From: a virus
IMG/VR virus record: IMGVR_UViG_3300042542_000517
Coordinates: 1-35,646 of that record
Direction: 5' to 3' (one strand)
Length of the DNA: 35,646 nt
Shown here in pieces: positions 14,794 to 15,586 of this stretch (position 1 is the stretch's first letter; each line of letters starts with the position of its first letter). The notes below the pieces were generated by a model. That model was not told the DNA's origin, did not search any database, and saw nothing but the letters and a program-made list of their open reading frames with translations. Made by a program: the position numbers and the translations under genes.

Positions 14794-15033
14794 ATGGAAT
14801 ACGATAATACTAATCGCGGTATGTTAGGGCGTAACACTAACAAGCAGTCTGACAAGCATCCAGACTACTCCGGCACGATCAATATCGATGGCAAGGATTA
14901 CTGGCTCTCTGGATGGCTTAAAGAAGGCAAGAACGGTAAGTTTTTCTCTCTAGCGGTTAAGGAGAAGGAAACCAAGAAGCCAGCAAAGAAAGTAGAGTTT
15001 CAAGATGATGATCTTAGTGACGCACCATTCTAA
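14794..15033 (+). CDS. SSB-like small protein with acidic DDLSDAPF tail
   Basis: This 79-residue protein has MEYDNTNRGMLGRNTNKQSD at the N-terminus, then a compact beta-rich YSGTINIDGKDYWLSGWLKE segment and FFSLAVKEKE. It ends in DDDLSDAPF, closely resembling the acidic PF-terminal tip by which bacterial SSB recruits partner proteins. The pattern NRG...DKHPDYxGxINxxGKxYWLSxW is shared by a common phage and plasmid family. It likely binds single-stranded DNA or docks on SSB partners, working with the ERF protein next door. The fold is smaller than a full SSB OB-domain. Confidence 0.75.
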   Translation: MEYDNTNRGMLGRNTNKQSDKHPDYSGTINIDGKDYWLSGWLKEGKNGKFFSLAVKEKETKKPAKKVEFQDDDLSDAPF

Positions 15034-15042
15034 GGAGAAACT

Positions 15043-15189
15043 ATGAAATACTTATTCGCACTCTGGTTAGCTCTCACAGCCCCTATCGTTTGGGCTAGCT
15101 GCTCGACACATAGCTATTACTATGATGGTCGGTATGTGACCTGTACAACCTGCTGTTATGGTGGCAACTGCAATACAAGTTGCTTTTGA
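15043..15189 (+). CDS. Secreted cysteine-rich peptide, 48 aa
   Basis: ATG at 15043 has AAGGAG upstream and encodes a signal peptide MKYLFALWLALTAPIVWA, with cleavage likely after WA. It is followed by a mature peptide of about 30 residues with seven cysteines and many tyrosines (SYYYDGRYVTCTTCCYGGNC). No lipobox is evident, since the first mature residues are SC. Such disulfide-rich exported peptides are odd in a phage recombination operon. It may act in the periplasm, for example to exclude superinfecting phages; that is a hypothesis. I recall similar short secreted peptides in other phage genomes, function unknown. Confidence 0.75.
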   Translation: MKYLFALWLALTAPIVWASCSTHSYYYDGRYVTCTTCCYGGNCNTSCF

Positions 15190-15394
15190 TTATGGAGGAA
15201 AGCGGATGCCAGCTTTTCGATTAACAAATCGTCAAGGATAGAACTGGTGAAGCGAGTACTCCACCCTTAAGCCTAGCGATAGGTGGCGCGAATAACCTAC
15301 GCAGCATACGCACAGTCTCCTATCAGGTAGGTTTCTCCCCTCTGTGTGAGTATGTTGACAGCCCGGAAAGACGGGCATTAACTCAGGAGAAAAC
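15190..15394 (+). ncRNA. Structured non-coding leader or small RNA upstream of the HTH gene
   Basis: This 205-base stretch has no convincing gene. It contains a series of inverted repeats: CGATT-AACA-AATCG (15218-15231), CCACC/GGTGG (15261-15286), AACCTAC/GTAGGTT (15294-15333, 7 bp, 26-base loop) and GCCCG-GAAAGA-CGGGC (15361-15376). CACAG at 15311-15315 can instead pair with CTGTG at 15342-15346, so two folds may compete. The last hairpin is 8 bases ahead of the AGGAG ribosome site of the HTH gene. It could be a regulatory leader, a small RNA or an attenuator; which of these is not shown by sequence alone. Confidence 0.4.
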
Positions 15395-15586
15395 ATGGAA
15401 CTGCTGGACTATTTACTTAAGACCTACGACATCAAGAATGACCGCCAATTAGCCCTAACGCTAGGCGTATCAACCCCGACTATTAGCAAGATTCGTAACG
15501 AGCGATATGGCGTATCGGCTAGCATGATGATTGCCATTCACAAGACCTTTGCTATGCCTATTGAAGAAATTGAAAGTTTCCTATGA
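15395..15586 (+). CDS. Small helix-turn-helix DNA-binding protein (Cro/XRE-like)
   Basis: The 63-residue protein is a single XRE/Cro-type fold: MELLDYLLKTYDIKNDRQLA, then LTLGVSTPTISKIRNERYGV, which forms the helix-turn-helix (residues about 17-38), and a C-terminal helical part. The AGGAG site is 5 bases from the ATG. Size and position in the rightward operon suggest a Cro-like regulator that could bind the palindromes or 18-base elements at 13175-13309 and 9566-9601. No CI-like partner is seen. The stop overlaps the next start (ATGA). Confidence 0.82.
   Translation: MELLDYLLKTYDIKNDRQLALTLGVSTPTISKIRNERYGVSASMMIAIHKTFAMPIEEIESFL

Follow-up and report, generated by a model that had tools for sequence, protein, structure and literature searches.

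The window, by which we mean the whole stretch of DNA that was analysed, is a 35.6-kb virus record (35,646 nucleotides) from IMG/VR. It contains a short plus-strand operon at about 13.3–16.5 kb that includes a 205-nt gap, and the question raised by this locus is what such a gap is for. In order, the operon comprises ERF and SSB genes, a gene for a 48-amino-acid secreted Cys-rich peptide, the gap, a Cro/CI-type HTH gene, a MazG-type gene and small genes. Based on comparison with related phages, we propose that the gap is probably a cis-acting regulatory RNA leader. Its surroundings are organized as follows.

14794–15033, plus strand: SSB gene (phrog_7364, 2.5e-18), the typical upstream neighbour of module A (see below) in relatives
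15187–15189, plus strand: stop codon TGA of the upstream small peptide gene; the stem of module A begins 3 nt on, and relatives cluster at 3–8 nt
15385–15389, plus strand: Shine-Dalgarno (SD) sequence AGGAG of the HTH gene
15395–15586, plus strand: Cro/CI-type HTH gene of 63 amino acids with its ATG at 15395, the first gene 3' of the RNA (Pfam Phage_CI_repr 8.7e-07, HTH_3 1.6e-05)

An earlier note on this DNA had described the gap as a gene-free leader rich in inverted repeats. Between the TGA at 15187–15189 and the ATG at 15395 there is indeed no plus-strand open reading frame of at least 50 amino acids, and a 54-amino-acid frame on the minus strand is only mechanical. The repeats are real as well, including a 7-bp pair (AACCTAC 15294–15300 / GTAGGTT 15327–15333), CACAG 15311–15315 / CTGTG 15342–15346 and GCCCG 15361–15365 / CGGGC 15372–15376, and the final hairpin ends exactly 8 nt 5' of the AGGAG at 15385, as had been stated. 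The 7-bp repeat, limited to the closest relatives of the window and lost in sister phages, is thus probably incidental. Folding alone could not settle the question of structure, since the single-sequence folding energy of the gap is only modestly low: the plus strand has a z of −1.97, with 5 of 200 shuffles folding equally well, and the minus strand a z of −1.0. Single-sequence folding was therefore rejected as proof, also because the minimum free energy (MFE) fold of the middle third relies on non-conserved repeats. A putative leader peptide (MEESGCQLFD, ATG at 15192) was discarded too, its ATG being absent in relatives such as L078 and L015.

Comparison across phages is more informative. The HTH protein as query led to 21 viral loci. 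Among the closest relatives the leader hardly changes, whereas the flanking genes vary; relative L007 has a different upstream gene, yet its leader starts at the same place 3' of the stop codon. Distant relatives retain some parts of the leader and alter others, indicating that the leader is modular. In the gap we distinguish three sense-strand modules, A (15193–15265), B (15270–15355) and E (15357–15377). Compensatory changes are found in the stems of each, which is the test that the earlier note had itself proposed, and its structured non-coding regulatory leader is well supported. Invisible from the single sequence was its composition of independent modules, each recurring across many phages. 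The gene of the Cys-rich peptide (MKYLFALWLALTAPIVWASC..., 15043–15189 in the window) behaves as a cassette, located 5' of module A in the clade of the window and between A and B elsewhere (L060, L063, L073, L076).

Module A is built from the following elements.

15193–15265, plus strand: module A as a whole, an irregular hairpin with a putative loop-E/bulged-G core and the conserved 3' flank ACC (covariance model R1, 70.1 bits, the window being within the training set)
15193–15197, plus strand: 5' arm of P1, UGGAG, pairing with CUCCA 15259–15263; relatives have GAGG/CCUC, GGGG/CCCC and other pairs
15198–15203, plus strand: conserved GAAAGC facing GCGAGUA 15252–15258, a predicted bulged-G (sarcin-ricin/loop E type) internal loop with a GC/GC pair
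15208–15212, plus strand: 5' arm of P3, GCCAG, pairing with CUGGU 15244–15248; sister phages have GCUGG/CCAGU, a two-sided change
15213–15243, plus strand: variable apical domain, usually a hairpin, with a fast-changing sequence

The outer stem was evaluated on matches to an inner-core pattern from which this stem had been left out. Among the matches listed, the first four pairs of P1 are formed in 100 of 112 distinct copies, compared to 26 copies on average and at most 39 when the partners are shuffled, and the pair types include GC, CG, UA, AU and UG. With its AGUA/GAA signature, the core GAAAGC/GCGAGUA is consistent with a bulged-G (loop E) motif. This core is near-invariant in alignment A2, though it belonged to the search patterns; since these patterns fixed the bases concerned, sequence conservation in each set of module A copies is partly by construction. 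The tip, on the other hand, varies in both length and sequence. T-arm-like stretches appear in some tips (L073, L241, L273), e.g., GCCGGTTCAACTCCGGC in L073. Of 98 copies, 64 have an A and 27 a C immediately 3' of the outer stem, 85 have a C at the second position and 75 a C at the third.

At one inner pair of module A, G-C (22 of 48) and G-U (20 of 48) alternate freely, which favours RNA over DNA. This alternation bears on the idea that the element is a single-stranded DNA structure serving replication or recombination, for which the frequent ssDNA-binding and recombination gene neighbours, including those of non-homologous families, could be invoked. Loop E is moreover a motif of RNA, and the element is intergenic and on the sense strand; we consider a DNA structure hardly likely at all.

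Of the elements in the gap, module A is the one present in hundreds of phages from freshwater and the sea. A search of viral contigs with a gapped pattern built on its two ends retrieved 83 stretches, the inner-core pattern at least 120 viral matches, a descriptor search 272 matches against 1 in the reversed sequence, and a broader descriptor search 201 distinct copies. IMG/VR thus holds at least 200 distinct copies, often in tandem with arrays of up to three, and usually at one site per phage; a match was present in 28 of 30 virus records tested, at a single site in nearly all. Many copies are related, so that these counts overstate the number of independent events. While BLAST of a 558-nt region against phage records gave no match, a 55-nt consensus found one deposited phage, the circular MW202879, with the same layout (R1 40.9 bits, 5 nt 3' of a stop codon and 5' of a ribbon-helix-helix gene). 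Good copies are also found in assemblies of Limnohabitans, Comamonas, Pelomonas and other Burkholderiales, which suggests Burkholderiales as the host group; Comamonas odontotermitis (L175) and Burkholderiaceae bacterium 16 (L168) are two examples of carriers. In bacterial genomes the element is rare: among those of the Limnohabitans family, 4 of 401 have an R1 match. Mimicry of a host RNA was rejected on this basis: with 397 of the 401 lacking a match, no common host RNA resembles module A at that threshold.

The compact, stable folds and the strong conservation of the core across many lineages might also be expected of a trans-acting phage small RNA that is released from the operon and captures a host RNA or protein. 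There is, however, no linked terminator, the position is fixed relative to the flanking genes and the variable apical domain has no conserved seed, making such a small RNA very improbable.

The placement of module A is constrained on one side. In 117 of 139 stop-led copies it starts 3–8 nt after the stop codon, most commonly at 5 nt, compared to about 2% per 5-nt bin for random positions, while its spacing from the next start is highly variable. Thirty copies have neither a stop codon nor another module in front of them; a TATAAT-like box lies 3–12 nt upstream in 27% of these (5.5% in shuffles). In L216, L224, L225, L248, L263 and L277, module A directly follows a sigma70-like promoter and not a stop codon; L263 and L277 also have a terminator-like hairpin just 5' of that promoter. 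The interpretation given in the earlier note is thus supported in part, with control of the Cro-like gene being plausible: module B lies mostly 5' of HTH genes, while module A is anchored more tightly to the preceding stop codon or promoter than to the next start.

The genes 5' of module A usually encode SSB, Enc34-type ssDNA-binding or other replication/recombination proteins, and the ssDNA-binding neighbours belong to non-homologous families (OB-fold SSB, Enc34 ssDNA-bd, DUF669). On the 3' side there is usually a DNA-binding regulator or a replication gene, and the genes found there include HTH, phrog_1123, MazG and DNA-polymerase-like ones. In 21 annotated records a short early operon is split at the site into a part with SSB/ERF-type genes and a following part with HTH, MazG or DNA-polymerase-like genes. 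By eye, the gene directly 5' of module A is HNH-type endonuclease-like in L007, L191, L236 and L321.

Its location right where the upstream cistron ends would suit an element for mRNA processing or stability (an RNase III, E or P site, or an end protector), by which the SSB message would be separated from that of the regulator. RNase P recognises RCC, and the conserved ACC beyond P1' (15263–15265 in the window) is similar to it, a likeness seen by eye only. Yet where a copy starts at a promoter, there is no preceding message to be split off, and no T-loop is conserved in the variable apical domain. Altogether, a processing element seems quite unlikely.

Stop-codon readthrough was discarded, as the median in-frame extension is 16 codons and 50 of 139 frames pass the module, a number comparable to those for the two other frames (38 and 60). 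An intrinsic terminator or attenuator was discarded as well: no U-tract directly follows P1', and an intrinsic terminator lies within 160 nt downstream in only 1 of 175 copies, which is not above background. The same count speaks against antitermination of the HK022 put kind, in which the nascent RNA would bind RNA polymerase and suppress downstream termination. In favour of this mechanism are the similar length (about 70 nt), the early region and the occurrence of sites both after promoters and within early operons (PMC9378689). However, put as published consists of two stem-loops with a triplex, whereas module A is a single interrupted hairpin, and just 0.7–1.2 kb of operon follows in the window and many relatives. 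We regard put-like antitermination as an improbable function of module A.

Module B has a different architecture, with the following parts.

15271–15302, plus strand: H-type pseudoknot of module B; helix Pa pairs GCC 15271–15273 with GGC 15285–15287, and helix Pb pairs GCG 15276–15278 and UAG 15280–15282 with CGC 15300–15302 and CUA 15297–15299, respectively, leaving A15279 bulged
15304–15355, plus strand: P2 of module B, with GCAUAC/GUAUGU, a conserved G/UGA internal loop, CACAG/CUGUG and a CU-rich apical loop (alignment A3, 100% of cells paired, with two-sided changes)
15333–15341, plus strand: CU-rich apical stretch of module B, which could pair with the SD region GGAGAAA 15386–15392 (predicted in the MFE fold)

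In 49 distinct module B sequences, two interleaved helices are followed by a long stem with the fixed G/UGA internal loop; the version of the window has a one-base bulge in the second pseudoknot helix. CACAG/CTGTG, previously read as a competing pairing, turns out to be a conserved helix in this long stem. Cells with two-sided changes number 97 compared to 22 in shuffles, although the relatedness of the sequences means that such counts overstate independent events, and covariation reaches a score of 0.33, compared to 0.11 for shuffled sequences, the pseudoknot helix included. Covariance model R2 gives 58.8 bits for module B of the window, which is itself within the training alignment. Module B can occur apart from module A (L091), and is located mostly 5' of HTH genes of the same HTH family as in the window, sometimes 5' of other genes.

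The preference for HTH genes of one family is in line with a translational switch, in which the CU-rich loop of module B would mask the SD sequence of the HTH gene and open upon binding of a ligand or protein, either riboswitch-like or autoregulatory. In the window, pairing of UUUCUCC with the SD region GGAGAAA is possible and forms part of the MFE fold, the complementarity has a rank of 0.03 and SD accessibility is 0.21 compared to 0.42 in shuffled leaders; masking is also supported in some sister leaders. Over 48 distinct leaders, however, SD accessibility is not below that of shuffles (0.47 vs. 0.45), and in L014, a close relative, the SD is predicted to be open. Complementarity between the apical loop and the SD region is near compositional expectation (12.7 vs. 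11.5). Masking of the SD by module B as a general feature is thus unsupported across the leaders compared, and a translational switch appears unlikely as the explanation of the leader.

The last module of the gap is a small hairpin.

15357–15377, plus strand: module E, a UGACA flank and the hairpin GCCCG-GAAAGA-CGGGC

Elsewhere its stem is swapped for CCCCG/CGGGG, CUCCG/CGGAG or GCCGG/CCGGC, with the GAAAGA loop and UGACA kept, and some sister phages have another hairpin in its place at a similar distance to the ribosome site. A promoter with TTGACA at 15355–15360 was rejected: relatives have CAGACA at this site, so that the conserved item is the flank of hairpin E and not a −35 box. Two further putative structured modules, C (CCAAGACGCAUGAGGA...UCCUCAGUCGUGUUGG) and D (AGUAGGCCAUAGGGCGAUAGUGGCAUAACGCACAC...), lie up to about 500 nt 5' of the HTH start in L057–L076 and are sometimes repeated.

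Comparison thus establishes the folds and that they lie in sense orientation, that the modules recur, and that module A is located at the first untranslated nucleotides. Because module A consistently falls on the first bases without ribosome cover, either after a stop codon or at a transcript start, a protecting or gating cis leader is favoured. As a full explanation, we put forward with slightly less than even confidence a compound cis-acting structured mRNA leader, composed of modules A, B and E, that would protect or gate the downstream half of the early operon. The conserved internal loops of module A may serve as the receptor for a trans-acting factor, probably one of the host, and module A would shield or gate the stretch free of ribosomes, countering its loss through Rho or RNases. 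The regulator or replication genes downstream could then be expressed at a level set separately from that of the abundant SSB/recombination genes, and module B would most likely add a gene-specific layer of control on the HTH gene. The specific shielding or gating mechanism is tentative. With only about 1.2 kb of genes downstream in the window, a strong need for polarity protection is not obvious, and simple shielding would not require so sequence-conserved a core. The genes that follow also vary from phage to phage, so that the regulatory output may not be a single one.

A strict core combined with a free tip, one fixed site in hundreds of phages and near absence from the genomes tested of the host family together imply a shared host partner. 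More speculatively, phages of Burkholderiales and other aquatic bacteria may carry undescribed, interchangeable RNA cassettes at the points where ribosomes come off the mRNA, which would be recognised by a host factor and split early operons into separately controlled halves. Module A would be the common receptor with a variable head and B a pseudoknot, accompanied by E as well as C and D. Identifying the host partner would show a general way in which phages set early gene expression, and covariance models R1 and R2 make the family easy to annotate.

Among known RNA families no counterpart was found: Rfam 15 gave no match at gathering score in the window or seven relatives, and none at E ≤ 1 in three loci carrying further modules; at E ≤ 10 the best match was nuoG, with 14.4 bits against a cut-off of 33 bits. 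Recurrent in hundreds of phages and without an Rfam match, module A appears to be a type of viral regulatory RNA that has not been described before. A literature search retrieved no description of it, with a 2017 survey of 224 motifs and the supplementary alignments of 2010 and 2017 being outside the comparison; the risk remains that part of the element already figures in that survey.

Several known systems share individual features with the leader. The preQ1-II and SAM-II riboswitches sequester the SD sequence with a short H-type pseudoknot just 5' of the start codon; the leader described here differs in having no Rfam match, no general SD masking and no linked metabolic gene. The autoregulatory pseudoknot in the 5' leader of the SSB gene 32 of phage T4 is likewise a phage pseudoknot tied to an SSB gene, but the present RNA lies 3' of the SSB gene. 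GOLLD and ROOL are phage RNAs of about 650–800 nt that form cages and are often found near tRNA islands; they are similarly conserved, structured and of unclear function, whereas the modules here are 70–90 nt and intercistronic (PMC12286853). HK022 put, a structured RNA of early phage transcripts, is comparable to module A in size and in being placed both after promoters and farther into operons, a functional analogy only; the fold of module A differs from its published description, and module A has no linked terminators (PMC9378689). Nearest in layout is STAXI (RF01728), described in PMC2864571, which also tabulates a Burkholderiales-1 candidate motif without an Rfam entry. STAXI is a pseudoknot of unknown function with UUCG loops, repeated two to three times near ssb in Enterobacteriales, and its authors raised the alternative of an ssDNA structure for their motif. 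Its Rfam model has no match in the sequences searched. In our modules, found in aquatic phages, the repeated unit A is a loop-E hairpin and pseudoknot B is separate, present once per array in the leaders read. Both systems nevertheless arrange tandem structured elements, including pseudoknots, near genes for ssDNA binding or DNA handling.
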